NCBI RefSeq assembly: GCF_026627925.1
Contig: NZ_JAPNLE010000007.1
Location: 248,001 to 312,000 of the forward strand
Length of the DNA: 64,000 nucleotides
Direction of reading: 5' to 3'
From: Cupriavidus sp. D39
GTDB lineage: Bacteria; Pseudomonadota; Gammaproteobacteria; Burkholderiales; Burkholderiaceae
Shown: positions 3,373 through 44,886 of the stretch, piece by piece
Layout: the number at the start of each line of letters is the position of its first letter
How positions within the stretch are numbered: the first letter of the stretch is position 1
Program-made: the position numbers and the translations under genes
Notes under the pieces: model-generated
What the model saw: only the letters and a program-made list of their open reading frames with translations
The model's database searches: none
What the model was told of the DNA's origin: nothing

Positions 3373-3405
3373 GCGGGAAGGTAAATGGGAACTCAGGGGA
3401 ACATC

Positions 3406-20415: not shown

Positions 20416-20516
20416 GCGACGCGGGGGCTCATGCCTAAGTTATTGATTTTTTGAGGTTTGCTGTTCGCTTCTGCTTGGCGTATCTTGTTTGGCCCTAGGC
20501 ACGGGAGGCGCACGAG

Positions 20517-23428
20517 ATGCAAGGCTGGCAGAGCACCTTTTGGGCGCGCGCGAGGTGCCGCGTGAACTCAGCAATTTCGAATTGCAGACGTTCTTCACAT
20601 ACAGCCACGCCGAGCACGAACTGATCGGGCGACGGCGCGGCCCAACGATGAAGCTGGGCCTGGCGCTGCACATTGGCTTTTTGCGCATGAGCGGCTGCCT
20701 ATTGGATGCGTTCAGTATCCTGCCACCAGTCCTGCTTCGCCACCTCGGCACGGAACTCGGCATCAATACGCCGGATCTAGCGTCCTTGCGGGCGCTCTAC
20801 GCGCGTGGGCGAACGCTCTCCGACCATCAACTGCTGGCCTGCCAGACGCTCGGGTTTCGTTGGATAACGGTACATCAACGTCGAGCCCTTGTGCGGGCGC
20901 TGCGTGATGAAGTGCTGCATTGCGCCGATCGGGACCGACTGCTGTCATATGCGCACCAGTGGCTGTATCAGCATCGACTGATCATCGTGCATGAGCGCGC
21001 CATCCGAAGCCTTGTCGCAGCGGCATTGACCGAGCTTGAGTCCGGTGCCTGCGCCTCGATCCATTCGGCGGTACCTCCCGCGACATGGCGAAGATGGCTA
21101 GCCGCAATGGAACAAGCACGACCGGATGGTCAGCACGTCCAGAACTGGCTGTGGGCGGTCCCGGCGAAGCACTCGACGCGACAGTTCGCCGAAGTGCTCG
21201 AACGTATCGAGTGGCTAGTCGAGATTGGCGTCGACCGCCATCGTTTCGGTCTCAACGATGTTTTGGTGCGCCGTTTTGCACGTCGCTTGGCGGCGCGGTC
21301 CCCATCGCTCAGCGCACGAATTAAGGAGCCGGCACGCACCGTCGAGCTGGGCTGCTTCCTGCGATATTGCCTGCTCACTGCCACTGACCAGCTGATCCTC
21401 ATGTTTCAGCGCCGGGTGGCAGATCTATGGCGGCAGAGCGCGGAGGGTGTGAAGGCTCCCATCGACTGGGCCGCACAATACCGGCAACTGCTCGACGAGC
21501 TGGCCAGCTTGAGTAGCGATGGGAGTATTCCGGATGCCGAGCTGCGCCCGCATCTGGCCCAATTGGTGGCCGACAAGCGCACTCAGCGCACACCGAGCCG
21601 GTCGTCTGCGATCAGGCTGCGGCTGATCGACGCCATCAGGCCCGTACGCGCGTTACTGGTCGCCGTCGCCAAGCTGCCCTGGCAAGCCACCGGCGAACAC
21701 CCGGTAATTGACGCTCTGGGCAAGCTGCGCCACCTGTATGCGAAGGCCGTTCGAAGCTTACCCGATGACGTGACCGCCCCTTGCCTAGGGCCAGCCTGGC
21801 TCGATGCGATCAGCGGTGCCGATCGCGAGCGCGCCTTCCGGGCACTTGAAGTCGCCACCCTGTTTGCCTTGCGCCGCGCCGTTCGCAACGGCTCAGTCTG
21901 GATCGAGCATTCATTGAGCTTCCGAGGTCGCGAGCGCTTGTTCCTGCCAGCCGAGCGTTGGCAGGCTGAAGCTCGGCGCCACTATACGCGGCTGTCGCTG
22001 CCAGCCCAAGCTGCCGACTTTCTCGGGCCGTTGCTTGAGCGCGTGCGCACAGGCATTGCCGCGGTCGCGGTAGCGACGCGCGCCGGCACGCTACGCGTCG
22101 ATGACGAGTTGCACCTGGCACCGCTAGCGGCACAGGAAGAGGATCCCGAGGTCTCAAGGCTGCGGACCCGCCTTGACCACCACATCGGCGATGTTCAGTT
22201 GCCGGAGGTCATCTTGGCAGTGGACGCCCAGACGCGCTTCAGCTGGATCATGCTCGGCCGCGAGCCCCGGTCTGTGCAGGAACTGTTGATGGTCTACGCT
22301 GGCATCCTCGCGCATGGCACGAGTCTGACGGCGGCCGAGTGTGCCAGGATGATTCCACAATTGTCAGCCACGAGCATCCGCCACGCCATGCGCTGGGCGG
22401 GAGATGAGAGGCGGCTGGTTCAGGCCTGTAAGGCAGTTCTGGAGTTCATGCACCGCCATCCGATCGCGGCGAGTTGGGGCCGGTCGGATCTCGCCTCCTC
22501 GGACATGATGAGCCTGGAGACAAGCCAGCGCGTCTGGCAGGCACGGCAAGACCCACGTCGCCACACCGCCTCGGTAGGTATCTACACTCACGTCCGAGAT
22601 CGGTGGGGGATCTTTCACGCCCAGCCGATTGTGCTCAACGAAAGGCAGGCCGGCGCGGCGATCGAGGGCGTTGTGCGGCAGGAGCGAATCGAGACCACAC
22701 AATTGGCGGTCGACACTCATGGCTATACCGACTTCGCAATGGCGCTGGCCAGGCTTCTTGGGTTCGACCTGTGTCCCCGACTGCGAGAACTCAAGCAGCG
22801 TCGTCTCTTCGTACCTCGCGGCGTTGCTGTTCCCGATGAGATCGCATCCGTGTGTCTCGCCAATGTGGATTTGGCTGCGATCGAGGCGCAGTGGGACCCT
22901 TTGGTGCACCTGACAGCCTCCGTGATGTCGGGACACGCCAGCGCTGTGGCAGCCCTAGCGCGATTCGGCTCGGCCGCACGGGGCGACCCTATCTATGACG
23001 CCGGCGTGCAGTTAGGCAAGCTGCTGCGCACCGCGTTCCTTGCCGACTACTTCGTCAATGCCGGGTTCCGGCGTGAGCTGTTACGCGTGCTTAATCGCGG
23101 CGAGGCGGTCAACTCGCTAAAGCGGGCGATCTATACAGGCCGAGTCGCCCCCACGCAGGCTAGGCGCGCCGACGAGATGCAGGCCGTCGCCGACGCGCTA
23201 AGCTTGCTGGCTAACATCGTGATGGCGTGGAATACCGGTCAGATGCAGACAGTGCTCGATCGGCAAGTGAAACGACGGCAGCCCGTGGCACCCGAGTCGT
23301 TCGGGCGAATCGCCCCAACACGGCTAGAGGGCATCAATCTCCGGGGCGTCTTCCGCTTCCCAGTTGAGCGCTACGTCGGACAACTACTGCCGTCACAAAC
23401 TGCACCCAAAACAAGCGCTGCGGGCTGA
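20517..23428 (+). pseudogene. tnpA: Tn3-family transposase TnpA, early frameshift
   Basis: The body (about 965 codons) has the DUF4158 N-terminal region (REVPRELSNFELQTFFTYSH) and the C-terminal DDE core: Asp in DLASSDMMSLETSQ, Asp in LAVDTHGYTD, Glu in LNRGEAVNSLKRAIYTGR. The start with a proper GGGAGG site is ATG 20517, reading MQGWQSTF, but the T4 run at 20538-20541 needs a fifth T to enter the main frame. Without it, only a TTG at 20489 without homology could begin the long frame. Otherwise full length, so either a sequencing slip or a recent inactivation. Confidence 0.8.
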
Positions 23429-26018: not shown

Positions 26019-26591
26019 TTAGACCGCCATGCCGAATTGTGTAAGGATGGAAACCGTCTGCGTAAGGCCTTGGGCGGTCAAAGTGCTCAAATACTCGGGG
26101 ACAGATTTCGGTGGGTTCTTGAGCGATGCACGGTGTTCTGCCACTGCGGCGAGAACTTTGCCTGCGTTCAGGTCAAGGAGATCCACGATGAAATCGTCTG
26201 GGTGGATCGCCTCGATGTTGAACTTGTCGAGCGCCGCCTTCGGGAAGTCCTTCATGTTAAACGTGATGATCGCTTCGGCCCCGCTATGGATGGCGGCAGC
26301 GACCACATGCCGATCATCTGGATCGGGCAAAACGACGGACGCAATCAGATGCTCATACCCGGCGACCAGCGACTCACGCACATTCTGATTCATCAGTGCA
26401 CGTGTCCGTGCCAGCCGTTGCTCTGTGAGGTCTTTTCGCTTCGCTAATAGATTGCTCGTCCACTCATCATGGATTCGGTCCGTCCACTTGGCACGGTACA
26501 AGTCCGTCAGCGCAAGGCGCATCAAGAGGTCTCGCAATGGGGCTGGATAAAGAACGCAGGCATCGTATACAACTGCGAAATTAGACGCCAT
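26019..26591 (-). CDS. PIN-domain toxin-like ribonuclease
   Basis: The 190-aa protein begins ASNFAVVYDACVLYPAPLRD, placing the first PIN acidic residue (Asp in YDAC) at the N-terminus; further acidic residues occur in WTDRIHDEW and in LPDPDDRHVVAAAI. PIN toxins cleave RNA using such an acidic Mg site. ATG 26591 lies 3 bp after the reconstructed antitoxin stop (26594-26596), a translationally coupled arrangement. The partner upstream is an HTH antitoxin. An intact frame suggests an active toxin if the antitoxin is also made. Confidence 0.8.
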   Translation of the reverse strand: MASNFAVVYDACVLYPAPLRDLLMRLALTDLYRAKWTDRIHDEWTSNLLAKRKDLTEQRLARTRALMNQNVRESLVAGYEHLIASVVLPDPDDRHVVAAAIHSGAEAIITFNMKDFPKAALDKFNIEAIHPDDFIVDLLDLNAGKVLAAVAEHRASLKNPPKSVPEYLSTLTAQGLTQTVSILTQFGMAV

Positions 26592-26593
26592 GC

Positions 26594-27054
26594 TCAATAG
26601 CCCATGTCAAGCTCTTGTGCCTGAGCGGAGAGCTCGTCCAACGCCTTGCGTCGCGCTTCATCGATGCGTTGTTTATAACTAACCACGTCCTGATAGAGCA
26701 CGCGTCGATGCGTGTTCACCTTCCGGAACGGGATTTCCCCTTTTCCAGCAGTTGAACCAGATACGGCCGCGAAACGTTGAGCAGGTCTGCGGCTTCCTGT
26801 GTGGTCAACTCGGCATGGATTGGGATGATCGAAACAGCGTTCCCTTGCCCGATTTCGGCCAGCACTTCAACCAGAAGCTTCAGCGCCGAGGTCGGCAGGG
26901 TGACGCTGCGCATCTCTCCCTTGTCGGTCTTGAAGTCAAATTGCTGCGTTTCAGAACGGTTGTCCAGGACCACCGCAAGGCTACGGCTGGACTCACGGGC
27001 AATAGCGCTCTCATCTGCCGAAGGCAGCGCCGTATTGCTGATGGTCACATTCAT
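26594..27054 (-). pseudogene. HTH (excisionase-type) antitoxin, single-base frameshift
   Basis: GGAGAA precedes ATG 27054. The N-terminal region is followed by an HTH of MerR/excisionase type ([20 protein letters not shown]). The frame breaks in the G4 run at 26737-26740; with a fifth G it continues [20 protein letters not shown] then [20 protein letters not shown] and ends at the TGA 3 bp before the toxin. The restored protein is 153 aa. An antitoxin cannot easily be lost while its toxin stays intact, so a sequencing error is more likely than a real mutation. Confidence 0.7.
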
Positions 27055-27327
27055 GAAATTCTCCGGCTCAGTCTGAGTACGGGAGCATTGTAATTCGAAA
27101 TAATCGAAATCGCAATATCCGAAATTGCGACCGGACTGAGACAAGAAAATCCTGGTGTGAAGTCCTTCCTATGATCGGCGTACCTTGACGGTGGGAAATG
27201 TCGTATACGACACCCATCCTCCAGGGTGACGGGGGATGGTGCGACTTCACATATAAGAGTTACGAGTCGACACTCTCGAAAATGCGCCTATTGCGGCATG
27301 TGCGAGAGGTCGAATGGCGCGTAAGTA

Positions 27328-28601: not shown

Positions 28602-29711
28602 TTGGCGGTTTCAAGTCCCAAGTGCAACACCCGCGTCAGTGAATTGAAGTTGGGGGTGAGAAACTTGTTTGAGCATACGAGCGAACACCTCCAGTGGGGA
28701 GTGGAACGCGTGCGTAGCACGAGGTCGCTTGTTCAAGCTGTCGGCAATTGCGTCGAGTTCTTCTTGTGTGTGCACGGACAAGTCGGTGCCCTTGGGCAGG
28801 TACTGGCGCAGCAGCCCGTTGGTGTTCTCACAAGTGCCGCGCTGCCAGGGGCTGTGCGGATCGCAGAAGTACACCTTGACGCCAGTGTTGGCGCTGAGCT
28901 CACTGTGGCGCGTCATCTCCTTTCCCTGGTCGTACGTCAGGCTCTGGCGCAGCGGCTCAGCAATCGAATTGAGCTTGGCAGAAAAGCCGGCCAGCGCCGA
29001 GGCCGCAGTAGCGTCATCCATCTTGGCCAACAGCACCAGACGACTGCTGCGTTCGACCAGCACGCCCACCGAAGACTTGTTGCCCGCGCCCTTGATGAAG
29101 TCACCCTCCCAGTGGCCCGGCATGACGCGGTCCTCGACCTCGGGCGGGCGCACATGGATGCTGACCATCTCAGGAATCTGCCCGCGTCGATCAACCCCGC
29201 GCTTGCGTGGCATGCGTGTGCTGCGGCCATGGCGCAGGCAGGCGATGAGCTGGCGGCGCAACTCGCCCCTGGGCTGCGCGTAAATGGCCGTGTAGATCGT
29301 CTCGTGAGATACATGCATGCTGGGGTCCTCGGGCCACACTCGCTTAAGGATACCGGCGATCTGTTGCGGCGACCACTTCCAATCCAACAAAGTCAGCACC
29401 GCGCCCCACCGAGCGTGTTGCGGATCGAGCTTCGCTACCGGGCGCGCCTGAACCCGCCGCGCCTGCCTCATGGCCTGCGCCGGCAGGCTCGCGTAGCCAC
29501 GCAGCGCACAGCTGTTTCGCCTCAGTTCACGGCTGACGGTGCCCGCCGAGCGCCCGAGTGTGCGGGCCATGGCCCGCACACTCGAATCGCTCTGGCTCAT
29601 GCTCGCAATCGTCATGCGCTCCTCAGGCTGAAGTTGTTGGTACGAAGTTCTGCTTTGCATCGGAGCACCTTACCCGAAGCAAGGTGTTGCACTTCAGATT
29701 TGAGGCCGCCA
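28602..29711 (-). mobile_element. IS30-family insertion sequence
   Basis: The 1.11-kb unit has ~30-bp imperfect inverted repeats: TTGGCGGTTTCAAGTCCCAA at the left and, reversed, ATGGCGGCCTCAAATCTGAA at the right, both continuing GTGCAACACC. It contains one intact transposase gene. Confidence 0.82.
28611..29660 (-). CDS. IS30-family transposase
   Basis: The 349-aa protein has an N-terminal HTH (SSVRAMARTLGRSAGTVSRE) and the DDE core with Asp in MPGHWEGDFIKGAGN, Asp in SLTYDQGKEM and Glu in WQRGTCENTNGLLRQYLPKG, all in the usual IS30 context. The frame is complete from MQSRTSYQQL to the stop just inside the left inverted repeat, so the element is probably active. It sits directly upstream of the LysR gene of the metabolic operon and could influence its expression. 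Confidence 0.92.
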   Translation of the reverse strand: MQSRTSYQQLQPEERMTIASMSQSDSSVRAMARTLGRSAGTVSRELRRNSCALRGYASLPAQAMRQARRVQARPVAKLDPQHARWGAVLTLLDWKWSPQQIAGILKRVWPEDPSMHVSHETIYTAIYAQPRGELRRQLIACLRHGRSTRMPRKRGVDRRGQIPEMVSIHVRPPEVEDRVMPGHWEGDFIKGAGNKSSVGVLVERSSRLVLLAKMDDATAASALAGFSAKLNSIAEPLRQSLTYDQGKEMTRHSELSANTGVKVYFCDPHSPWQRGTCENTNGLLRQYLPKGTDLSVHTQEELDAIADSLNKRPRATHAFHSPLEVFARMLKQVSHPQLQFTDAGVALGT

Positions 29712-29917
29712 TGGGTTAACCAATCAGCGAGCTCTTGATATAAGCCCCGACAACATCGTGGCCGAGCGAGTTTTCGAGATGGCGGTACGCAGCACCGAAG
29801 TGAACTCTACTGCGCGTGCGCTCGAACCCGATGTCCGAGCAGGAATGACGCTTGGTGAGTGCACAGCGTGCTCGGTGCGCCATAATTGACGTATCGCCAC
29901 GGCCGGAGCATCAGGGC

Positions 29918-30835
29918 ATGAATCTCCATCGTCTCGATCTCGTCTCACTCTCACTTTTCGCACTCGTTGTTCGCAGCGGCAGCATCAGCAAAGGCGCTGA
30001 GCTCGCCCATCTCGCGATAGGTGCTGCGAGCAAGAGAATTGCGGACCTCGAGTCCGCAATTGGCACGGAGCTATTCGAGCGACACTCCCGCGGCATTACG
30101 CTCACCGCGGCGGGCGAGGCGCTCAAGCGTCATGCGCAGCGCATCCTGAACGATGTGGACCTGATGACCGCCGATCTGTCGGACTATGCGGCCGGTGTTG
30201 TGGGCGTCGTTCGCCTGTGGGCCAACACCTCAGCGGTCACGCAGTTCCTGCCGTCGGACATTGCCGCGTTCGCCGCCGCGAATCCGGAAATCCGCATCGA
30301 GCTTGAAGAGCAAAACAGCGAGCAGATCGCATTGGCGGTGGTCGACGGACACGCCGATTTCGGCATCATGGCCGACCAGATGCCGACGCTTGGTCTTCAA
30401 ACCACGTTATACCGCCGCGATCGTCTGGTGCTGGTCGTACCAGACGGGCATCCGCTCGGCCGGCGCAAGTCGGTGCGCTTCGACGACGCTCTCGAGTTCG
30501 ACTTTGTCAGCCTGACGCACAACACGTCACTTGCGAAGCGGCTTCAGCTCGCTACCAGCGTGTCGGGCGGACGGTTGAAGCTGCGGATTCAAGTCCGCAG
30601 CTTCGACGCGATGTGCCGGATGGTGGACGCAGGGCTCGGTATCGCCGTGCTGCCGGACGCAGCGGTACGTCCGCACCTGTGCTCGATGGGCTTGCGCAAG
30701 ATCGGTCTGTCGGAAGAATGGGCTGACCGGGACCTGCTCATCTGCGCACGGGATCTCAATGCACTGCCGAAGCCAGCGCGCCTGCTCGTCAATCACCTGA
30801 TCCGTTCAACGCCGGATACCGCTTCCACCAACTGA
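29918..30835 (+). CDS. LysR-family transcriptional regulator of the dicarboxylate operon
   Basis: The 305-aa protein starts MNLHRLDLVSLSLFALVVRS; the winged HTH (SISKGAELAHLAIGAASKRI) is followed by a substrate-binding-fold effector domain ending LRKIGLSEEWADRDLLICAR. ATG 29918 is chosen because the LysR N-terminus starts here; the 22 codons upstream are not family-like. It is transcribed in the same direction as the leuC-like gene 182 bp downstream, rather than divergently. It probably senses the substrate or a CoA intermediate of the pathway. The IS30 element ends about 200 bp upstream. Confidence 0.88.
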   Translation: MNLHRLDLVSLSLFALVVRSGSISKGAELAHLAIGAASKRIADLESAIGTELFERHSRGITLTAAGEALKRHAQRILNDVDLMTADLSDYAAGVVGVVRLWANTSAVTQFLPSDIAAFAAANPEIRIELEEQNSEQIALAVVDGHADFGIMADQMPTLGLQTTLYRRDRLVLVVPDGHPLGRRKSVRFDDALEFDFVSLTHNTSLAKRLQLATSVSGGRLKLRIQVRSFDAMCRMVDAGLGIAVLPDAAVRPHLCSMGLRKIGLSEEWADRDLLICARDLNALPKPARLLVNHLIRSTPDTASTN

Positions 30836-31017
30836 CAACTGACGGGACCTGCCTCGCGGCCGCTTTCGCGGTTCGTGAAAGCTCGCTTCCCCACTATTGC
30901 ATTCCCACCGCGGCACCTCCCGCGGACAATCGTTCTCCATCAAGCACACTCCAGCCAGTCATGGCGGAAGAGCAGATAAAGAATCATTCCTTCATCTGAA
31001 TGCATGGAGACACCGCA

Positions 31018-32450
31018 ATGGAGTTAGCCAGTACGCCCCGCACGTTGTTCGACAAACTGTGGCAAAGCCACGTCGTGGCGGAAACACCTGACGGTCCGAC
31101 GCTGCTCTATGTCGACCGTCACCTTGTCTACGAGGTGACGAGCCCGCAGGCGTTCGAAGCGCTTCGTCTGTCCGGGCGCAAGCCCTGGCGCCCCGAGACG
31201 GTGCTTGCGGTAGCTGACCACAACGTGCCCACGCTGGCATCGGAGCGCACGAGCATCGACGCGATCGCGGACCCGCTATCGCGCATCCAGGTCGCCCAAC
31301 TCGACAAGAACTGCAGCGAGTTCGGCATTACGTCGTACGGTATTCGCAACCCCAGGCAAGGCATCATCCACGTGGTGGGTCCCGAACAGGGCGCGACGCT
31401 GCCGGGCATGACGGTCGTGGCCGGCGACTCCCACACGAGCACCCACGGTGCATTTGCGGCGCTGGCGTTCGGCGTGGGCACGTCGGAAGTCGAGCACGTG
31501 CTGGCGACGCAATGCCTGTCGGTCAAGAAGATGAAGTCGATGCTCGTGCACGTCGAGGGCACGCTGCCCCTCGGCGTCACAGCCAAGGACCTCGTGCTCG
31601 CGATCATCGGCAAGATCGGCACCGGCGGCGGCACCGGCTACGCGATGGAATTCGCGGGCAGCACGATCCGCGCCCTGTCGATGGAAGGCCGCATGACCCT
31701 GTGCAACATGGCGATCGAAGCGGGTGCCCGGGTCGGACTCATCGGCGTCGACGACGTCACGATCGACTATGTCAAGGGCCGCCCTTTGCGCCCCGCGACG
31801 CGCACGGGGATGCCGCGGTGGCCTATTGGCGCACGCTTGTCAGCGATCAGGGCGCCCGCTTCGACAAGATCGTCGACATCGACGCGACGCGCTTGCGGCC
31901 GATGGTCACCTGGGGCACGTCGCCCGAAATGGTGGTATCCATCGACGACACGGTCCCCAACCCGTCAAATGAAGCAGATCCCGTCCGCCGCGCCGGCATG
32001 ACACGTGCGCTGACGTACATGGGTCTCGAGCCCGGCACGCCGCTCACGGACATCGCGCTCGACAAGGTCTTTATCGGCTCATGCACCAATGCGCGCATCG
32101 AGGACCTGCGCGCGGCCGCGGCCATCGTGAAGGGCAAACACGTCGCGCCTACCATCCAGCTCGCGCTGGTGGTGCCTGGCTCGGGGCTCGTCAAGGCGCA
32201 GGCCGAAGCCGAGGGTCTTGACGTCGTCTTCAAATCGGCAGGCTTCGAATGGCGCGAGCCTGGCTGCTCGATGTGTCTCGGCATGAACGACGACCGCCTG
32301 CATCCGGGCGAGCGGTGCGCCTCCACGTCCAACCGCAACTTCGAAGGCCGTCAGGGCCCCGGTGGTCGCAGCCACCTCGTTAGTCCCGCGATGGCCGCCG
32401 CGGCAGCCATCGTCGGTCACTTCGTCGACGTTTCCCGCAGAGGCCTCTGA
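31018..32450 (+). pseudogene. LeuC-type (aconitase-family) dehydratase large subunit, one-base frameshift
   Basis: GGAGA is placed seven bases before ATG 31018. The first frame carries [11 protein letters not shown] and [20 protein letters not shown]; it breaks after DYVKGRP. The next frame continues [40 protein letters not shown] and [11 protein letters not shown], giving all three 4Fe-4S Cys. Adding one C to the CCC at 31782-31784 restores a ~477-aa LeuC-like protein. The stop overlaps the leuD-like start (TGATG). In this cluster it likely hydrates or dehydrates a methyl-branched diacid instead of making leucine, but bona fide isopropylmalate isomerase is not excluded. Confidence 0.82.
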
Positions 32451-33088
32451 TGCAGCCCTTTACCAAACTGGAAGCACTCGTCGTGCCACTCGACCGCGCG
32501 AATGTCGACACCGATGCGATCATCCCGAAGCAGTTCATGAAATCGGTGAAGCGCACCGGCTTCGGCGTTAACCTGTTCGACGAGTGGCGCTATCTCGACC
32601 ACGGTGAGCCGGGCCAGGACGTGTCGACCCGCCGGCCAGATGCCGATTTCGTGCTGAACCAGCCCCGTTTCGCGGGCGCACAGATCCTGCTCACGCGTGA
32701 CAACTTCGGTTGCGGATCCAGCCGGGAGCATGCCGCCTGGGCATTGTCGGATTTCGGCATCCGCGCGCTGATCGCACCGAGCTTTGCCGACATCTTCTAC
32801 GGCAACTGCTTCAAGAACGGCATGCTGCCGATCAAGCTTGACGAACGCATTGTCCAGAATCTGTTCGATCTCATTGCCCGCACCCCAGGCCTGCGCCTGG
32901 CGATCGATCTGGAAGCCCAGTGCATTCGGCCCATCGGCGGTGACCCAATCCCTTTCGACATCGAACCCGAACGCAAGCGCCGCCTGCTCAACGGGCTGGA
33001 CGACGTCGCGCTGACGCTCGAGCAAGCCGAGCGTATCCGCGAGTACGAGCGTACCCGCCGCGCCCACGAGCCTTGGCTCTTCAGCTGA
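32450..33088 (+). CDS. LeuD-type dehydratase small subunit
   Basis: The 212-aa protein has the swivel domain with [20 protein letters not shown] near the N-terminus and [20 protein letters not shown], the substrate-recognition and active-site Ser loop, in the middle. Its ATG overlaps the leuC-like stop by one base, implying coupled synthesis of the heterodimer. Length is normal for proteobacterial LeuD. Function follows that of the large subunit; the neighbouring CoA-transferase and lyase argue for a catabolic diacid substrate. Confidence 0.88.
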
Positions 33089-33134
33089 GGCAAAGCGCCC
33101 TCACGCGCCAACCGCAATTTCAGGAGCCTTCATC

Positions 33135-34352
33135 ATGAGTGGTCAACCTTCGCTTCCAACCTCGCCCGCCGCGCTGAAAGGTGTGCGCGTGATCGAAATG
33201 GGCCAGCTGATCGCCGGTCCGTTTGCCGGCAAGACGCTCGGCGAGTTCGGCGCAGACGTCATCAAGATCGAGCCTCCGGGCGCTGGCGACCCGCTGCGAA
33301 ACTGGCGGCTGATGAAGGATGGCACCTCAGTCTGGTGGCAGGTGCAGTCGCGCAACAAGCGCTCGCTCGCGCTGGACCTGCGCAGTACCGACGGCCAGGA
33401 CATCGCGCGCAAACTGATTGCCGAGGCCGACGTGCTCATCGAGAACTTCCGGCCCGGAACGCTGGAAGGGTGGGGGATGGATTACGGGCAGCTGTCCGAA
33501 CTCAACCCGCGGCTCATCATGCTGCGCATTTCCGGGTACGGCCAGACGGGTCCGTACCGGGATCTGCCCGGATTTGGCTCGATCGGCGAGGCAATGGGCG
33601 GGCTGCGGCATCTGACCGGCGAGCCCGGCCGCGTGCCCGTGCGCTGCGGTATCTCGATCGGCGATACGCTCGCCGCGCTGCATGGCGTGATCGGCGTGCT
33701 CACGGCGCTCTATCACCGGGACGCGAACGGCGGCAAGGGACAGGTCATCGATGTCGCGCTGCACGAAGCTGTCTTCAACGTGATGGAAAGCCTGATTCCC
33801 GAGTACAGCGCGTTCGGCGTTGTCCGAGAAGCCGCCGGCAGTGCGTTGCCCGGCATCGCGCCGTCCAATGCGTATCGGTGTGCTGACGGCTATGTGCTGA
33901 TCGCGGGAAATGGCGACAGCATCTTCAAGCGGCTGATGACGGCGATCGGCCGCGACGACCTCGCCGAGGACCCGGCTCTCGCGAACAACGCAGGGCGTGT
34001 CGCGCGCGTCGACGAACTGGATCATGCGATTGAAGCGTGGAGCGCGCAACATTCGGCCGAAGATGTGCTGGCCACGCTGACCGACGCGCGCGTGCCCGCA
34101 GGAAAGATCTACACGGCACGGGATATTGCCGAAGATCCGCACTACCGTGCACGCGACATGATCTTGCGGCAGTCCACGCGCGACGGCTATGAAGTCGACG
34201 TGCCCGGCATCGTGCCGAAACTGATGGGCACGCCGGGTTCCGTGCGCTCGTCGGCGCCGAAGCTCGGTGACGACACCGATGACGTACTGCGTGAGATCGG
34301 CCTGTCCGACACGCGGATTGCCGAACTGCGTGAAAAAGGAGCAATAGCATGA
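33135..34352 (+). CDS. Class III (CaiB/BaiF) CoA-transferase
   Basis: The 405-aa protein shows the family N-terminus (LKGVRVIEMGQLIAGPFAGK, then TLGEFGADVIKIEPPGAGDP), the catalytic Asp region (LPGFGSIGEAMGGLRHLTGE lies just before the strand VPVRCGISIGDTLAALHGV, whose GD is typical) and the C-terminal VPAGKIYTARDIAEDPHY. Such enzymes move CoA from succinyl- or acetyl-CoA to carboxylic acids. AGGAG precedes the ATG. It follows leuD by 46 bp and overlaps the lyase gene by 4 bp, so it probably activates the hydroxy-diacid for cleavage. Confidence 0.88.
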   Translation: MSGQPSLPTSPAALKGVRVIEMGQLIAGPFAGKTLGEFGADVIKIEPPGAGDPLRNWRLMKDGTSVWWQVQSRNKRSLALDLRSTDGQDIARKLIAEADVLIENFRPGTLEGWGMDYGQLSELNPRLIMLRISGYGQTGPYRDLPGFGSIGEAMGGLRHLTGEPGRVPVRCGISIGDTLAALHGVIGVLTALYHRDANGGKGQVIDVALHEAVFNVMESLIPEYSAFGVVREAAGSALPGIAPSNAYRCADGYVLIAGNGDSIFKRLMTAIGRDDLAEDPALANNAGRVARVDELDHAIEAWSAQHSAEDVLATLTDARVPAGKIYTARDIAEDPHYRARDMILRQSTRDGYEVDVPGIVPKLMGTPGSVRSSAPKLGDDTDDVLREIGLSDTRIAELREKGAIA

Positions 34353-35344
34353 ACATCTGGAACGGTGAACACCAGCGTATTTACATGCAAGAGGTCGGAA
34401 CGCGCGATGGTTTCCAGTCGGAAGGCGCGTTCGTTGAGACGCGCGACAAGATCGCGCTGATCGACGCGCTCTCGAACACCGGCATGGCCAAGATAGAGGT
34501 CACAGCTTTCGTGTCGCCGCAAGCGATCCCCGCATTGTGCGACGCCGAAATCGTGCTGCGCGAGATCGAGCGCAAGCCGGGTGTCGTGTACACCGCGCTG
34601 GTGCCGAACGTACGTGGCGCCGAACGGGCGATCGACGCGCGCGCGAACGAACTGAATCTTGTGATTTCAGCCAGCGAAAGCCACAACCTGTCGAACCTGA
34701 GGATGACGCGCGACCAGTCGTTCAACGGGCTAATGCAGGTTGCCGCCCTCGCACGCGACGCCGGCCTGCCTGTCAATATTTCGCTGTCCTGCGCATTCGG
34801 ATGCCCGATGGAAGGCGATGTTCCCGAGGCCACCGTGCTCGCGTGGTCGCAGCGCTTCATCGATGAGGCCGGCGCGCAGGGCGTCACGTTGTGCGACACG
34901 ACGGGGATGGCCTACCCGCAGCAGGTCGCAAGGCTCACGGCGCAGTTCGTCGAACGGTGGCCACGCATCGAACTCACGCTGCACTTCCATAACACGCGCG
35001 GCATGGGCCTCGCCAATGTGCTGGCTGCCATCGATGCGGGAGCTGACCGGTTCGACGCGTCGCTGGGAGGGATCGGTGGATGTCCTTATGCGCCGGGCGC
35101 CAGCGGCAACGTATGCAGCGAGGAAATCGTGCACGCGCTGGAACTGATGAGCTACGACACAGGCGTCGATCTCGGCGCGCTCATTGCCGCGGCGAGGCGC
35201 CTGCCATCGCTGATCGGGCACGATACCCCGAGCCAGATCGTGAAGGCAGGGCGCCGGCTTGACCTGCATCCGCTGCCGGCCGATTTCGCCGCGATTCGCG
35301 AGCGAGCGTTGCAACGGGACACCGCCGCTCGACCGCGAAGCTGA
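34349..35344 (+). CDS. HMG-CoA-lyase-like (HMGL/DRE-TIM) lyase
   Basis: The 331-aa TIM-barrel protein has EVGTRDGFQSEG at the N-terminus (the DRE-type Arg-Asp pair), metal-site His residues in LTLHFHNTRGMGLANVL, and the active-site loop Cys in GGIGGCPYAPGASGNVCSEE. These are hallmarks of hydroxymethylglutaryl-CoA lyases, which cleave 3-hydroxyacyl-CoA esters by retro-Claisen or aldol chemistry. Coupled ATGA overlap with the CoA-transferase suggests its product is the substrate. Citramalyl-CoA (giving acetyl-CoA + pyruvate) or a methylated analogue is inferred; HMG-CoA itself remains possible. Confidence 0.87.
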   Translation: MNIWNGEHQRIYMQEVGTRDGFQSEGAFVETRDKIALIDALSNTGMAKIEVTAFVSPQAIPALCDAEIVLREIERKPGVVYTALVPNVRGAERAIDARANELNLVISASESHNLSNLRMTRDQSFNGLMQVAALARDAGLPVNISLSCAFGCPMEGDVPEATVLAWSQRFIDEAGAQGVTLCDTTGMAYPQQVARLTAQFVERWPRIELTLHFHNTRGMGLANVLAAIDAGADRFDASLGGIGGCPYAPGASGNVCSEEIVHALELMSYDTGVDLGALIAAARRLPSLIGHDTPSQIVKAGRRLDLHPLPADFAAIRERALQRDTAARPRS

Positions 35345-35431
35345 ACACCACCTACTTTGTACATTTACCGGGGCCTCGCCCGGAGGCCACCAAAGAGATC
35401 GTAGAGACACCATCCTTCAGGAGACACCATC

Positions 35432-36790
35432 ATGCAAGAAACCCACATTGCGCAGCCGCCGAAGGCGCACTGGTACGACGGCCTGACGCCCACGCACTGG
35501 CGCGTGCTGCGCGGAAGCTTCCTCGGCTGGATCTTCGACGGCTTCGAGGCGCTCGCGCTCGTCGTCGTTCTCGCGCCGATGCTCAAATCGGTGTTGACAC
35601 CGGCGCAGGCACAATCGACGCCCGTCTACGCCGGGGTAATCATCGGCATCACATTGCTCGGGTGGGGCGTGGGTGGCATGGTTGGCGGCATCCTGGCGGA
35701 CTACGTCGGGCGCAAACGCATGATGCTCTGGTCAGTGTTCCTGTACGCGCTGTTCTCCGGGCTGACCGCTTTCTCCAACACCTTTGTCGTGCTGTGCTCG
35801 CTGCGCTTTCTGACCGGGCTCGCGATGGGCAGCGAATGGAGCACGGGCGTCGCGCTGGTTTCTGAAACCTGGCCAGAACACGCTCGTGCTAAGGGTGCAG
35901 GCATTCTGCAGTCCGGTTTCGGCTGGGGCACGCTGCTCGCGGCCGTCGTCTGGTACGCGCTTGCATCGACGCAGCCGCTGGGGACAGAGACGTGGCGGCT
36001 GATGTTCATTGTCGGCGCGCTGCCTGCGTTCTTCGTGCTCTATCTGCGTCGTGGGTTGAACGAATCCGCGAAGTGGCAACAGGCGGTGAAGGAAAAGCGC
36101 TGGAACGCGACCTCCGACGATCGCCCCCGTCCCGTCTCCGGAGCGGGCAAGGAAGACAAGCGCCCTTTTACGCTCACGCAGCTGTTCACCGAGCGAGAGG
36201 CGCTTCGCCGCACACTGTTGACGACGCTCCTGTCGATCGTTGCGACGACCGGCTGGTGGGCAATCTCGAGCTGGTTGCCTACATTCACCGTTTCACTGGC
36301 TAAAGGGACGGGGGCGCTCGACGCCGCCGCTTGGGAGTCGCGGATTTCGATCATCTATACCGCGGGCGCGATCGTCGCCTATCTGGCATCTGGCTTCATC
36401 GTCGACGCGATCGGAAGACGGGCGTTCCTGTGCATGACGTTCGTCGGCGCGCTCATCACGACGATCATCACTTATCACTACACGGCGACTCTCAGCGGAA
36501 TGCTGATCATCGCGCCGATCAACGGGTTCTTTACCCTTGGTTGCGCGTATGCGTGGATGGCAATCTATCCATGCGAACTGTTCACGCCGACTGTGCGTTC
36601 GACCGCGATCAGCTTCGTGTTCAACGCCGCACGCCTGATTGCGTGGGTGTTTCCGATCATTTCAGGCTCGATGATCAAGGCGTTCGGCGGCGTTGCGCAT
36701 GCGGCGCTCATCATGAGCTCGTGCTACGTGCTGGGAATCGTCATCCCGTGGTTCTTGCCGGAGACCCGCGGCAAGGGGATGCCGGAATGA
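35432..36790 (+). CDS. MFS carboxylate transporter
   Basis: The 452-aa protein has 12 predicted membrane segments. The N-terminal pattern WRVLRGSFLGWIFDGFEALA and GVGGMVGGILADYVGRKRMM (loop 2-3 motif) belong to the aromatic-acid/sialate:H+ symporter branch; a charged central loop (KEKRWNATSDDRPRP) separates the halves. AGGAGA precedes the ATG. It is the last gene of the operon, 87 bp after the lyase, and presumably imports the acid that the enzymes degrade. The IS6-type element follows 38 bp after its stop. Confidence 0.88.
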   Translation: MQETHIAQPPKAHWYDGLTPTHWRVLRGSFLGWIFDGFEALALVVVLAPMLKSVLTPAQAQSTPVYAGVIIGITLLGWGVGGMVGGILADYVGRKRMMLWSVFLYALFSGLTAFSNTFVVLCSLRFLTGLAMGSEWSTGVALVSETWPEHARAKGAGILQSGFGWGTLLAAVVWYALASTQPLGTETWRLMFIVGALPAFFVLYLRRGLNESAKWQQAVKEKRWNATSDDRPRPVSGAGKEDKRPFTLTQLFTEREALRRTLLTTLLSIVATTGWWAISSWLPTFTVSLAKGTGALDAAAWESRISIIYTAGAIVAYLASGFIVDAIGRRAFLCMTFVGALITTIITYHYTATLSGMLIIAPINGFFTLGCAYAWMAIYPCELFTPTVRSTAISFVFNAARLIAWVFPIISGSMIKAFGGVAHAALIMSSCYVLGIVIPWFLPETRGKGMPE

Positions 36791-36828: not shown

Positions 36829-37629
36829 GGCTCTGGTGCAAATAGCGATGTCGAATCGGTTAGAGTGTCGGGCTGAACGAATTGAGAGCCGACGATGAGC
36901 AAGCGGAAGAGCCTGGACAAGTTGTTTGCAGGCCGTCACTTTGATCGGGATGTGATTATTCTCTGCGTTCGCTGGTACCTGCGCTACAAGCTCGGTCTGC
37001 GGGATTTTGTCGAGATGATGGAGGAACGAGGCTTGTCGCTGGCCCACACGACGATCCTGCGCTGGGTGCGGCGCTATGCGTCGGAGTTCGTCAATCGCTG
37101 TTTCGGCACGCCGACGGGACGGTCGTGGGGTGTCGACGAAATCTACCTGAAGCTTCGCGGCAAGTGGGTCTACCTTTATCGGGCGGTTGATCGGGCCGGC
37201 CAAACGGTTGACTTCATGCTCAGTGCAAAGCGCGACGTGGCCGCGGCCAAAGCCTTTTTCGGGAAAGCAATCAAATATCAAGGCCGGCCGCCGAAGACCA
37301 TCACGCTCGATGGCTATGCGGCTTCTCACCGCACGGTGCGCGAAATGAAGGCCGAGGGCCTGCTGCCCGATAACCTGATCGAAAAGGACCATCGCAACGT
37401 CAAGTCCCGGACAAACGTCATGCTCGACTTCAAACGTTTCAGGAACGCCGCGATCACGCTCGCAGGCATCGAGTTGATGCATCGCATTCGCAAGCGGCGA
37501 TTTGGAGTTGCCAGATTGCGACTCAAAGATACTGCTGCGCCCGCTGTCTGGAATACAGTCCTGTCGGCTCAATGAGATATCCTATCTATAGGCAACAGCT
37601 CGTCCATATGGGTTATTTGCACCAGAGCC
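36829..37629 (+). mobile_element. IS6-family insertion sequence (intact)
   Basis: The 801-bp unit has terminal repeats GGCTCTGGTGCAAATA at both ends (36829 and, reversed, 37629). The flanking 8 bp do not match, so it may have arrived by cointegrate or recombination. It holds one complete transposase. Confidence 0.85.
36895..37575 (+). CDS. IS6-family transposase
   Basis: The 226-aa protein has the zinc/HTH-like N-terminus ([20 protein letters not shown], then the [11 protein letters not shown] helix) and the DDE core: Asp in [15 protein letters not shown], Asp in [13 protein letters not shown] and Glu in [12 protein letters not shown]. Length is slightly under IS26-type enzymes but complete. 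A different IS6 subgroup is represented by the damaged copies at 47.2 and 53.1 kb. Confidence 0.9.
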
Positions 37630-40057: not shown

Positions 40058-41220
40058 CTACAGACTCTCCTGGTCGACAAATCGGCCCAGCCTGCGTAGT
40101 GCTGGCAGCAGCACTTCATCCGCATAACGGCAGCCGGTAAGGCCCGGATCGGTCTGGCCCGACTTCCTTGCTTCATCCGGCGCGTGGGACTCCTCCGCGA
40201 GCAGGCGTGCAAGCAGCGCCTCGTAGCCAGCCTTCCACGCTTGCGCGCCTGGGAATACCACGCGCAACTCCTTGAGAATATCCATCCCGGCAAAATCCAG
40301 GTCGCCCCAGAAATGAACCGGGAGCGTGACGTCGGTGCCATGCAGCCATGCAAGAAAGCTACGCCCCAATGCCGCATTCCGCTCAAACACGCCCGGGGCA
40401 AAATAAACTGAGCTGCCACCCGGCTGGCGCAGCCGCCTCGCGCTCGCCTTGTATCCTGATGCGTATATCAGGACAAAACCTTCGGCGGCGCTAAGCCTCC
40501 CCGCCGCCATCGATTCGAACGTTGCGGCATTTTCCACAAACAGGATCGGGGCGGTAGGATCGGCTGTACGGGCGGCTACCAGCAGTTGCACCGGTTTGTC
40601 CGGAAAGGGGCAGACATCCGTGTCAAGCAACAGGGCAATGGTCTCCTGCTGGCCGTTGAGAATTTTTGACAAGCCCCAGAACTGCCGGCTTGCCACCTCA
40701 TGGAGCATGAGGTTCTCGCCGGCAAGCGCCCGGATGCCCGCGAGGCGTTCCAGCACCTGCTCCGGTGAACGTGGCAGGATGAGGATCGGACGGGACAGCA
40801 GCCGCTCGCACAGCGCCACGTTGCCAAAGCGCGCCGGCACAGCCTGCCGCCACTGCGCCATCCAGGCGACCACGGCACTGGGCTGGCGCCCCGTCTCGTC
40901 TCGAAGAAACGCTTCCGCCTGCGCGGCAATGACGAGCTTCGGTGCGCGCTCCCAGATATCAAGATCCCGCTGGCCGCGACGCTGGTCGAGCATCAGCGCC
41001 AACCCGGGCTGCGCCTGCAGCGCTTCCAGAGCGCGCCACACGAACATGCGCTCGCCGTGGAGGGCGATCGCGAAAACTCCGGCCACGTCCCGGCACTCAA
41101 CGGGAAGCTGATATCGCGGCGCCTCTCGGCAAACGGCTTCGCCTCGATGCGGTCCACGAGCGCATTCAGCAAAGCGGTGAGGGCGGCCGGCCGGCGCCCT
41201 AGAATACCGTCGGCGCTCAT
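40058..41220 (-). CDS. jetD: Wadjet nuclease subunit JetD (one-base frameshift near the N-terminus)
   Basis: ATG 41220 overlaps the jetC stop (ATGA). The first frame reads MSADGILGRRPAALTALLNA and AKPFAERRRDI, then one missing base near 41109 shifts it; the next frame continues LPVECRDVAGVFAIALHGER, the DUF3322-like part, and a Toprim domain with Glu in LFVENAATFESM and the acidic pair in VHFWGDLDFAGMDILKEL. JetD is the topoisomerase VI-like subunit that cleaves plasmid DNA after loop extrusion. The restored length is 387 aa, normal for the family. It is the last gene of the operon. Confidence 0.87.
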
Positions 41221-44200
41221 GTCCCCATGTCCGAGACCAACTGTTTGCGCGCCTCCTGCAAGTCGAACTGCCATGCCGCTTCACGCCGCACCGCCTCCCG
41301 GCGCTCAGTCCAGAGGGCATGCAGCCGGTCGGCCTTCAACAGGGAGCTGTCCACCTCGGTAATCTTATCGAGTTCCCCTGCCAGGCCCTCCACCTTCATC
41401 AGGGAAAAGCGATGCTCGAAGCTGAACAGCTCAAGCAGCGGGCCAGACGCGCGGGACGGCATGGCAACCACCAGTTGCAGGCCAAGGTTCTCATTGAGAT
41501 AGCGCATCACCGCGGCGGTGCGGCCCTCATCCATCTTGTCGAAGGCCTCATCGATCATCATGAGCTTCAGGCTCGGCGTCTTCTCGAACTGGCGAAATGA
41601 TTGGGCCAGCACGGCGGCCCGTACGAGATAGGCCGGCGTCATCAACTCGCCTCCCGAGAACGTCGCCATTCTCGCCAGGGACGCCTCGCGTCCATCTTCC
41701 GAATACTTGCGGATGTCGTACTGGCGATAGTTGCGGTAGTCCGCTATGTCCTTCAGCCTCCGTAACGCGTGGTCGCGGTTGGTGTCGAGCAATAGCAGCT
41801 TGATATCGTCCAGCGCCACGACGCTGTCGGCAGACAGCACGCCTTCGGCTGCCGAGAACAGATCTATCGGCGTTTGCCTCTCGGCCAGCCGGTTCAGGTC
41901 CTGGAACAGGTCGTAGTACTTCTTGTATTCCTTAACCATCTGGCCGTATTCGATCTCGAAACGGTCTTCGCCGAATGCCAGCCGCTTGAGCTTCTCATTG
42001 AGCCGCTTGAGCGGATCGATGCCCTGCTCCACCGCGGTGCGGACGGCCAGCGCAAAATGCGTGCTGAAGGTATTGTTGAAATTCTTCTCGGCTCCCCGCA
42101 ACTCGCTGGTGTTGTTGAGAATGCGCACTTGGTCGAGCCGTTCGAGCATGGCCGAGATCTGACGCCGGGCGGCAGGTACTCCACCATAGGCTTGCCACTC
42201 GTACTCCCCTGCGTCGACTGGCAAGGCTGGAAGTCGACCCGCTCATCGAACGAGGAAGACAGGAGATTGTGTGCCTCCAGTTTCCGCTCGAACGCTTCGC
42301 GCTCCTGGCGGTACAGGCCGGCTTGCTGCCGTCGCCGCCCGTCGAAAGACGCGGTGGCCTGCTCCTTGGCGGCCTCCCGGGCGCGCCTGTCAAGCTGGAC
42401 CGGATCGAAGTGCGAATTGAGCCGGATCAGTTCAGCCACGCGGGCGTTGACCCGCCTCACGCCGTCCTGGCAATCAGCGAGGCTCGCCTGAGCGGCAGCG
42501 ATGTTGTCTTGCAAACCGCGCGCCCGGCCCGCCGCTTCACCCGCCGCGCGTGACGCGGCATTGGATAGGTGCTGGTGGCCGTCCAATAGCTGCTCCGCAC
42601 GCACCACGCGGCGCTCCAGCACGATGAGGTCGGAGTCATCCAGACTGGCGAGCTGCGCCACGAGACTGCTCAGTCCGCGCTGCGTCTCACCCAACTTGTC
42701 CAGCATCGGCGCGACAGGCGTGAGCTTCAGGCCGAGCAGACGCGCACCCCATGCGGCCAACTCTGCGGCGCTTGCGCGATGCTCGTCCCTTTCCCGCGTC
42801 TTTTCGTCGATCTGCCGAGCAAGCCTCACCACGCGCTTGCGCCGCGCCTCGGCACCGAAGGCAAGCTCGCCGTCCTCCACCCATGACGAAAACATCTTGA
42901 ACCCGCCGCTGGCCATGCCGTCTACCGTCAGTGCCTGTGGCGCGCCGCGCAGCGCCTGTGCATCCGCTACCTTGACATAACGGCCGTAGCTTGCAACCAG
43001 ATAGGCGCGCGCGGTCTCATCGGCAATCACCAGTTCCTGCAGCACGGAGTCAGGCGACAGCGCCTGGTTCTCCGCCCGCCGCTTGGCCAGTTCACCCTGC
43101 ACCACGGAAGCCTCTCGTGCTTGTCTAGTCGCAGGCAGTTCGTGCCGCAGCGCCCGGATGGCGCCCGCCTCGTACTGCGCGTCCACCAGGATCACGAAGC
43201 GGTTACCGCCCAGAAGCCCTTCGATAGCGTTCTGCCAGCGTGAGCCCTCCCGCGGCTGGACAAGGTTGCAAAGGACTCTGGGACGAGCGCCCGGCATCTG
43301 GGCTTGGAGATATCGGACCGCGGCCTCAACATGCGCCGGCAAGTCAAAGTGGCCATCTTCCAGCCCTTGCCGGCGCCGCTTCAGGTCATCGATTTCCCCT
43401 TGCAGGGCGGCAGCGCGATCCGATTCCCGCGCCTGCTCCTGTACCACCGCGCCATACAGGCCATCGGCGCCGTGTAAGCGCTGCGCAATGGGGGCCAGGA
43501 CGGCATCCAGGCTGGCGAACCGGTCGCGCCGCAGGCTCGGCGGGTCGATCTGCGCACCAGTCAGCATCGCCGCTAGCTCGCGCGCGGCGGCCCGGCCGTC
43601 GGCGGCATCGATCGCCGCGGCATCCACAACCAGCCGCTCCACGTGGGGTGCGTAAGCGGCGGCCGGTCCTGCAGGCCGTTTGGCCAGGACGGCCAGTTCG
43701 TCCAGCACGCCGCGCAAGCCCCTCAGGGCGGCCAAGATGTCCAGCGCGATACGGGATCGACCTTCGGTGGCATCGGCTATCTCGCGGCTGAGCCGCTCAC
43801 GATCCTGTGCCACCGGGTTGCCATTGAGCCGCCCCTTGGCAGCGCCGTGCAATTCCGTGGCGCGCTTCAGCGCTTGTGTATGCCGGTCGGCGAGCGCCTG
43901 CTGCTTTTCGACATCGGCCAAGGCAAGGTGCCGGGACGCCTCCAGCCTTTGGATCTCCTCCTCGACATCCTGCTGCCGGCGCAGGGCTTCGCCCAGTTCG
44001 GCCTCCATGGCCTCTTCGAACGCGGCAAGGAACGCATCCGCGTGTGCCTTCAGCGCTCCCAGCCTCTCACGGCACGCCAGCAACTCGGTGGCGATCTTCC
44101 GCAGCTGCTGCACGTTCTGCATGAGCGACGCGATATGCCCAATCTGGTCGGAGAAGTCAGGCTCGGCCAGCACTTGCTCACGGATCAGCTCGTCCACCGA

Positions 44201-44886
44201 GCCGACGGTCTTGCGGGCAATGGACTGGACGAAAGCCCGCGCCGCAGCTTCGGCCTCGCGCGGCCCGACCAGCGTCTTGCCGCCACCGCGAAACTCGGCA
44301 TAGAGCTTGCACAGATAGTCTTCGATGCTGTTCTCGAACGGCAGGACGCGCGGATAGCGCTGGCGCAGCCGATGGTAGATATCCTCGACCTTCGCCGCTG
44401 TAATCGAATTCCCCCTGCGCGACTCGATGAAATCCGCCTCCATCGCACGGCTGCCCGGCAGCACAAAGTAAAGCTTGCGCGCCACTTCGACGCTGCGGCC
44501 TTGCTCGCGCGTACCGGACACGGCGGCCTCCACAGCCACCACGGCGGTGAATGGCTCGGAGGACTCCCCGGCATCGGGTGCGAAAACAGCGACGACATAG
44601 GTGTGCGACCCATACGGCCGGACGCAGAGGTTGTCGCGCATGCCTACCGCGTAGGACGCCAGCGTCCGCCTCACTTTGCCACCCGCGCGCAAGGCGCCGC
44701 TCTCGTCCTGCGCGGAGTTAAACACATTGATGTGCTGCTTGCCGCCGGTCATGACCAGTTGGATCGCGTCCTGGAAAGAGGACTTTCCAACTCCGGTCGA
44801 ACCCGACAGCAAGGTGGTGTCGCCAAAGGGTATTCCCGGGACACCACGAAACCCCAGTTGACCAGGATGAGCTTCTCAAGCTTCAT
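41217..44886 (-). CDS. jetC: Wadjet SMC-like ATPase JetC (two one-base frameshifts)
   Basis: ATG 44886 overlaps jetB by 11 bp and starts MKLEKLILVNWGFVVSREYP. Adding a C at the CCC of 44828-44830 leads into FGDTTLLSGSTGVGKSSFQD, the Walker A loop. A long coiled coil follows, with a hinge-like middle. A second break at 42223-42226 is repaired by one base and leads to LPVDAGEYEWQAYGG, the ABC signature ATFSGGELMTPAYL and Walker B LKLMMIDEAFDKMD. The restored 1223 aa match a MukB-like motor. It extrudes DNA loops to sense small circular DNA. The breaks look like sequencing slips, since both halves are well conserved. Confidence 0.88.

Follow-up and report, generated by a model that had tools for sequence, protein, structure and literature searches.

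The window analysed here is a stretch of 64,000 nucleotides from the soil bacterium Cupriavidus sp. D39, whose genome assembly comprises 7.74 Mb in 11 contigs. Near its middle lies a set of genes, all on the forward strand, for a LysR-family regulator, the large and small subunits of an aconitase-family enzyme (LeuC and LeuD, jointly LeuCD), a CaiB/BaiF class III coenzyme A (CoA) transferase (CaiB), an acyl-CoA lyase of the 3-hydroxy-3-methylglutaryl-CoA (HMG-CoA) lyase fold (HMGL) and a transporter of the major facilitator superfamily (MFS); the set is bordered by two insertion sequences (IS; Table 1). Open reading frames were named by Pfam and NCBIfam profile searches of the window proteins, and the automatic labels of the operon genes are those of leucine biosynthesis and of HMG-CoA lyase. 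Here, I argue from sequence comparison that the operon is, on balance, a probably horizontally acquired catabolic set for a branched dicarboxylic acid, most likely citraconate or (R)-citramalate, which would be converted into acetyl-CoA and pyruvate.

Table 1. Genes of the operon and the insertion sequences at its borders (window positions; aa, amino acids; E, E-value)
Feature	Position	Strand	Profile matches
IS30-family element, left border of the operon	28603..29711	-	NF033563 above cut-off
LysR-family regulator, 305 aa	29918..30835	+	PF03466 E 2.6e-36; PF00126 E 3.8e-16
leuC first piece, aconitase-family large subunit, N-terminal part	31018..31794	+	PF00330 profile positions 1-251
leuC second piece, different frame	31797..32450	+	PF00330 profile positions 260-463
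leuD, aconitase-family small subunit	32450..33088	+	PF00694 E 8.7e-39; NF002458 288 bits vs cut-off 167
CaiB/BaiF class III CoA-transferase, 405 aa	33135..34352	+	PF02515 E 5e-127
HMG-CoA-lyase-fold acyl-CoA lyase, 331 aa	34349..35344	+	PF00682 E 3.6e-48; NF004283 318 bits vs cut-off 246
MFS transporter, 452 aa, presumed importer	35432..36790	+	PF00083 and PF07690
IS6-family element, right border of the operon	36829..37629	+	NF033587 above cut-off

The genes for LysR, LeuD, the CoA-transferase, HMGL and MFS are intact frames (best Pfam E-values from 2.6e-36 to 5e-127) and the set is tightly packed: leuC and leuD overlap by 1 base and CaiB and HMGL by 4 bases, with 46 bases between leuD and CaiB and 87 bases between HMGL and MFS. 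The preliminary description of this locus had listed the six genes as one set; their positions are borne out and five of them are intact, but leuC, assumed there to be whole, is in fact split between two frames (see below). The closest named relatives of the operon are found in three Paraburkholderia genomes (L008-L010), in which a LysR ortholog of 86% identity occupies the same place and the MFS copies are 88-89% identical; identity falls to 69-70% with the MFS encoded beside LeuCD at three further loci (L146-L148).

A CaiB gene lies at most 300 bases from HMGL in all 80 of the nearest HMGL loci examined, some of whose fetched stretches are cut short. LeuC and LeuD accompany the CaiB-HMGL pair at nine of the 80, and a tenth (L012) holds the start of LeuC at a contig end. 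The arrangement varies. The order LysR-LeuC-LeuD-CaiB-HMGL-MFS is that of the window and of L008-L010, and it is also seen with that MFS not in the fetched stretch (L031, L067); a TctC gene, assigned by cluster membership, stands between LeuD and CaiB in L019 and L025, and roughly 1 kb separates these two genes in L024 and L071. The pair precedes LeuCD in LysR-CaiB-HMGL-LeuC-LeuD-TctC (L098, L140), LysR-HMGL is divergent from CaiB-LeuC-LeuD-MFS in L146-L148, and LeuC-LeuD is followed by LysR-CaiB-HMGL in L145. A search starting from LeuD gave matches in 189 of 200 family genomes; among the best 30 LeuD loci, 18 have LeuB adjacent, and neither CaiB nor HMGL shows up in the 1.5-kb flank of any of these; at six of the 12 loci without LeuB (window included), CaiB and HMGL both lie no more than about 8 kb away. 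A chance neighbourhood is rejected on the ground that the set recurs in different arrangements, and because LeuCD, the class III CoA-transferase and the lyase co-occur in at least five gene orders, they very likely belong to one pathway. In a tree of the lyases, many forks of which are weak, LeuCD-linked rows are scattered, by eye, over several places between rows that lack LeuCD. The host genome itself carries a paralogous LysR-CaiB-HMGL set (L101:6527-10967, reverse strand; 59, 64 and 57% identical, respectively) next to genes of an ABC-type system that include one for an NMT1-like binding protein. Among the titles and abstract beginnings listed by the literature searches, none reports a LeuCD-CaiB-HMGL set.

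The obvious assignment of LeuCD, isopropylmalate isomerase of leucine biosynthesis, was considered and rejected. The two share their families, and the LeuC pieces are 64-73% identical to seven LeuB-linked LeuCs; yet the biosynthetic enzymes are LeuB-linked and separate in the tree, whereas the window LeuCD is linked to CaiB and HMGL, with no LeuB match in the stretch fetched around it (L109). The host has its own leuC-leuD-leuB elsewhere (contig C9, L103), whose LeuC and LeuB exceed the NCBIfam cut-offs; a Pfam aconitase search of the genome returned seven matches, two of them the pieces in the window; among the other five, L001/L103, L002/L099 and L004/L100 are LeuC-like. The LeuC tree comprises 29 rows chosen from fetched loci and was midpoint-rooted for drawing, so that it shows separation and not direction. 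A branch with support 100/99 parts 14 CaiB/HMGL-linked rows from the seven LeuB-linked rows; eight rows belong to no group, of which L137 sits with the LeuB-linked rows and L144 and the long row L100 fall outside. The two window pieces, placed separately, join the CaiB/HMGL-linked LeuCs with Shimodaira-Hasegawa-like approximate likelihood ratio test (SH-aLRT) values of 96 and 95 (L100 excluded). To judge from these sequences, then, the window LeuCD is not the leucine-biosynthesis enzyme. The preliminary description had proposed this distinction, which is upheld by the second leuC-leuD-leuB and by the 100/99 branch; the contrary outcome that it had named, a LeuCD within the leucine clade of a genome with no second leuCD, is not what was found. 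A further LeuCD of the host, with a LysR-like gene, is encoded beside an NMT1-like binding protein and a protein resembling arylmalonate decarboxylase/EutA (L099:5825-10811, reverse strand), and a similar gene group occurs in L143.

As for the CoA-transferase, its solved relatives include 4ed9 and 9br7 (succinate-hydroxymethylglutarate CoA-transferase), and its Asp177 aligns with an Asp of 4ed9 that is presumably the catalytic one of class III CoA-transferases. The nearest solved chain of the lyase is 6nds. It shares with the canonical HMG-CoA lyase of leucine degradation the fold family and, by alignment and in human numbering, R41, D42, E72, H233, H235, C266 and N275, which are taken to be the metal and catalytic residues of that enzyme. 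It differs from both the human enzyme and the host's own canonical one (L102) at eight positions: N140R, C141M, S142T, R165N, I206T, V208M, D236N and Y238R. Among aligned CaiB-linked relatives, positions 140, 236 and 238 are constant, 141, 206 and 208 are constant except in L091, and there is variation at 142 and 165. Position 167, commonly cited for HMG-CoA lyase, is not diagnostic here, L102 also being without the human Tyr. The alignment thus describes a lyase in which the catalytic residues of HMG-CoA lyase are retained, with departures from the canonical enzyme at conserved positions.

Taken together, these assignments would make up a compact route. The MFS protein would import the branched diacid; LeuCD, going by its family, would interconvert a cis-enoic diacid (alkylmaleate) or a 3-alkylmalate with a 2-hydroxy-2-alkylsuccinate; the CaiB-type enzyme would transfer CoA to the latter, probably from succinyl-CoA; and the HMGL-fold lyase would split the thioester into acetyl-CoA and a 2-oxo acid. 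The net effect would be that of the LeuA/CimA-LeuCD part of branched-chain biosynthesis working in reverse, the thioester being provided by the CoA-transferase. The earlier proposal of a dedicated pathway of hydration or dehydration, CoA transfer and retro-Claisen cleavage, with its own regulator and transporter, is supported in outline.

With regard to the substrate, aconitase-family enzymes act on vicinal dicarboxylates, for which reason LeuCD should deliver a 2-hydroxy-2-alkylsuccinate; such a product fits citraconate/(R)-citramalate as well as isopropylmalate and argues against 3-hydroxy-3-methylglutarate, a compound without a vicinal dicarboxylate and, although put forward initially, a poor fit. 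Mesaconate, also put forward, is a trans-diacid and not an expected substrate of LeuCD; the expected one is citraconate. In keeping with this, an excerpt of PMC5882075 reports the conversion of citramalate into citraconate by isopropylmalate dehydratase. The likeliest substrate would be citraconate/(R)-citramalate, the main alternative being 2-isopropylmalate. Transporter genes near the CaiB-HMGL pairs, which are often of carboxylate type, bear on the same question: TctC (by cluster membership) lies within about 1.5 kb at 52 of the 80 nearest HMGL loci, and other carboxylate transporters comprise DctA (L151), dicarboxylate symporters (on two plasmids) and a citrate:proton symporter; MFS, TRAP and ABC systems are also found. 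On three plasmids (L158, L159, L160), SMP-30/gluconolactonase genes lie near CaiB-HMGL pairs that are without LeuCD, a hint that the substrate may exist as a lactone.

Several observations weigh against this reading. No LeuC or LeuD was found in the fetched stretch, in some cases short, at 70 of the 80 nearest HMGL loci, for which reason LeuCD is regarded as accessory to the CaiB-HMGL pair; six of the 12 LeuD loci without LeuB show no CaiB-HMGL nearby (L137 among them, seen in an unextended stretch); and one of eight annotated plasmid loci, that of Shinella, has an HMGL relative without an adjacent CoA-transferase. Likewise, five LeuC rows without CaiB-HMGL linkage in the stretch seen (L099, L139, L141, L142, L143) stand on the side of the 14, so that the side of the tree holding the window LeuC is not exclusively CaiB/HMGL-linked. 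A class I fumarase or MmgE/PrpD protein in place of LeuCD was expected in relatives; the one recurrent family between LysR and CaiB that was scanned (cluster 15, represented by L077) is an MFS transporter.

A further difficulty lies in LeuD, whose presumed substrate loop, the stretch PKQF[LM]K, nearly equals that of leucine-biosynthesis LeuD, the change being mainly Leu to Met; the sequence of LeuD would thus not separate citraconate from isopropylmalate. This near-identity, together with the far better scores of both LeuC pieces with bacterial LeuC than with homoaconitase models, would suit the same chemistry acting on 2-/3-isopropylmalate or another bulky 2-alkylmalate (2-benzylmalate, methylthioalkylmalates) to give acetyl-CoA and a branched 2-oxo acid, a reading that appears rather unlikely, given that the C4-C6 acid transporters near the CaiB-HMGL pairs suggest small polar acids and that no report of isopropylmalate catabolism surfaced in the literature listings.

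The two CoA-handling enzymes raise a different objection. The best NCBIfam score of the CoA-transferase, albeit below cut-off, is with succinate-glutarate CoA-transferase, and the lyase exceeds the cut-off of the HMG-CoA lyase model (NF004283). Hence the operon might serve 3-hydroxy-3-methylglutarate, the CoA-transferase making HMG-CoA and a true HMG-CoA lyase cleaving it into acetoacetate and acetyl-CoA, with which the presence of a succinate-hydroxymethylglutarate CoA-transferase among the solved relatives of the CaiB protein would agree. So would a CaiB-HMGL operon that the authors of PMC5789663 assigned to isoprenoid/mevalonate catabolism; Mimosa root exudate induced it 7.9- and 9.0-fold in one of two beta-rhizobia and about 2-fold in the second. 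The lyase, however, scores 318 bits to that model against 506 for the host's canonical L102, the pair being 38% identical and the eight positions above differing, and LeuCD would be left without a role on a substrate lacking a vicinal dicarboxylate; the reading is therefore held to be very unlikely.

The last difficulty concerns leuC itself, which reads as broken: its aconitase domain lies in two frames, with a frameshift near 31,795, between the two pieces, each of which scores below the whole-protein NCBIfam cut-off, and for this reason the operon may be inactive in the host strain. LeuC is unbroken in L008, L009 and L010, to which the first piece is 89.6-90.3% identical. Two controls address the break. 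The gene of the essential isoleucyl-tRNA synthetase (IleRS), ileS, is also split across frames in the host genome (L152:804-2069 and 1987-3621, forward strand; TIGR00392 positions 4-401 and 408-859), and valS (L166), the other strong match in that search, is whole. Moreover, CaiB-family genes are frame-split at 3 of 26 places in the host genome versus 1 of 145 in three congeners (Fisher p = 0.011); these counts were made by hand from tables, the congeners having been chosen because their assemblies have few contigs, partial matches that lacked a partner piece being taken as unsplit, and matches with in-frame stops (one in the host, two in the congeners) not being separated out. The two controls are suggestive of indel errors in the assembly; given the broken ileS and the higher frequency of splits among CaiB-family genes than in the congeners, an assembly error is the probable cause of the leuC frameshift. 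The contrary view is that the operon is real but dead here, leuC having become a true pseudogene after IS-mediated transfer, in which case the operon could only attach CoA to a 2-hydroxy diacid taken up from outside and cleave the product. The frameshift, the flanking IS30 and IS6 elements and the commonness of CaiB-HMGL modules without LeuCD would all accord with it; in view of a split ileS beside a whole valS in the same assembly, of the excess of CaiB-family splits and of the intactness of the remaining five genes, it is deemed unlikely, and a broken operon as the whole story was judged less likely after the controls.

The citraconate/(R)-citramalate reading has a close parallel. The (R)-citramalyl-CoA lyase of Chloroflexus is taken to be HMGL-like and encoded next to the transferase gene. 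That pair, too, would perform CoA transfer followed by acyl-CoA cleavage into acetyl-CoA and a 2-oxo acid; the operon adds LeuCD, LysR and MFS, and Chloroflexus belongs to another phylum. Succinyl-CoA:(R)-citramalate CoA-transferase (EC 2.8.3.20) and (R)-citramalyl-CoA lyase (EC 4.1.3.46) are listed as a pair in an excerpt of PMC8307300, and Sct of Chloroflexus aurantiacus is identified as the former in an excerpt of PMC4676930. By analogy, the operon could be seen as the known transferase-lyase pair type with LeuCD joined to it. The preliminary description had considered the HMGL-fold lyase as a possible non-orthologous citramalyl-CoA lyase; as a function, cleavage of (R)-citramalyl-CoA is already known (PMC8307300).

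Two other systems resemble the proposed route in part. The itaconate degradation route Ict-Ich-Ccl of Pseudomonas and Yersinia likewise takes a C5 branched diacid to acetyl-CoA and pyruvate by CoA transfer, hydration and cleavage; unlike in the proposed route, hydration there follows CoA transfer and the lyase is an (S)-citramalyl-CoA lyase. LeuCD, for its part, is expected to give the (R)-series. According to PMC9875883, the PA0878-0883 itaconate cluster gave P. putida no growth on (R)-citramalate or citraconate. Profile scans of the operon genes detected no itaconyl-CoA hydratase or CitE-type lyase, so that this route was discarded for the operon. In the use of mesaconate by way of class I fumarase in Burkholderia xenovorans (PMC4682846, in excerpt), hydration of the free acid, succinyl-CoA:citramalate CoA transfer and the lyase step follow each other as proposed here; in B. 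xenovorans, however, (S)-citramalate is formed by a class I fumarase, in whose place the operon has LeuCD. The same scans of the operon found no class I fumarase, and this route was set aside as well.

The lyase step may not be tied to one fold. In L141 (2229-8565), the neighbours of LeuCD include a protein of the citryl-CoA-lyase family, a CoA ligase and an intradiol dioxygenase, and in L142 LeuCD lies with a citrate-synthase-fold protein and TctC; in C. metallidurans CH34 (L154) it accompanies a CoA ligase, a dioxygenase and TctC, the CaiB gene being a stub of 236 amino acids and no HMGL match occurring in the stretch. These three are Cupriavidus-type genomes, in each of which a part of the genes was scanned. 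In Caballeronia sp. SBC2 (L157:5248-11930, forward strand), MFS-LeuC-LeuD and a LysR-like gene are followed by a citryl-CoA-lyase-family protein and CaiB. Because proteins of the citryl-CoA-lyase family or citrate-synthase fold neighbour LeuCD in such relatives, gene neighbourhood suggests that the lyase step can come from an unrelated fold in other bacteria. A wider reading, possible but doubtful, is that of a mobile catabolic mirror of LeuA/CimA-LeuCD chain elongation, in which 2-/3-alkylmalates (isopropylmalate, plant or microbial alkylmalates) would be converted into acetyl-CoA and a shorter 2-oxo acid by a lyase of the HMGL fold or, elsewhere, of the citrate-synthase fold.

Concerning the origin of the operon, the DNA of L008-L010 matches the window at 83.7-84.4% over about 29872-36790, i.e. 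between the IS30 and IS6 elements, and Cupriavidus sp. KK10 shares 85% identity over 4.7 kb with the window's left end. The lyase finds a match with an E-value of 1e-130 or better in six of 60 genus genomes searched, host included, the best of the other five being 66% identical; the named Paraburkholderia copies reach 87-89%, and one Cupriavidus pinatubonensis protein 88%. Because so few genus genomes match the lyase closely while Paraburkholderia copies come much nearer, the operon was likely acquired horizontally. The IS30-family element has terminal inverted repeats of 29 nucleotides (83% complementary), and the IS6-family element perfect inverted ends of 16 nucleotides, read from overlapping 14-mers.

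Should the proposed pathway be true, the labels of leucine biosynthesis and HMG-CoA lyase would mislead for a recurring family in Burkholderiales. Its genes would also be candidates for enabling growth on citraconate/(R)-citramalate, which the characterised itaconate cluster did not confer (PMC9875883), and its enzymes might serve in the upcycling of branched diacids. Finally, it could give a handle on the purpose of the root-exudate-induced CaiB-HMGL operon described in PMC5789663.

Elsewhere in the window, Wadjet type I defence genes lie on the reverse strand at 40061-46985, comprising JetD-like (40061-41320), JetC-like (41897-44812; the match spans profile positions 26-891 of 1215) and JetA-like (45558-46985) genes. 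On the other side of the operon are a Tn3-family transposase (20489-23425, forward strand) and, at 26022-27144 on the reverse strand, a PIN-domain protein adjoining a small protein that weakly matches a helix-turn-helix domain; the two may form a toxin-antitoxin pair.

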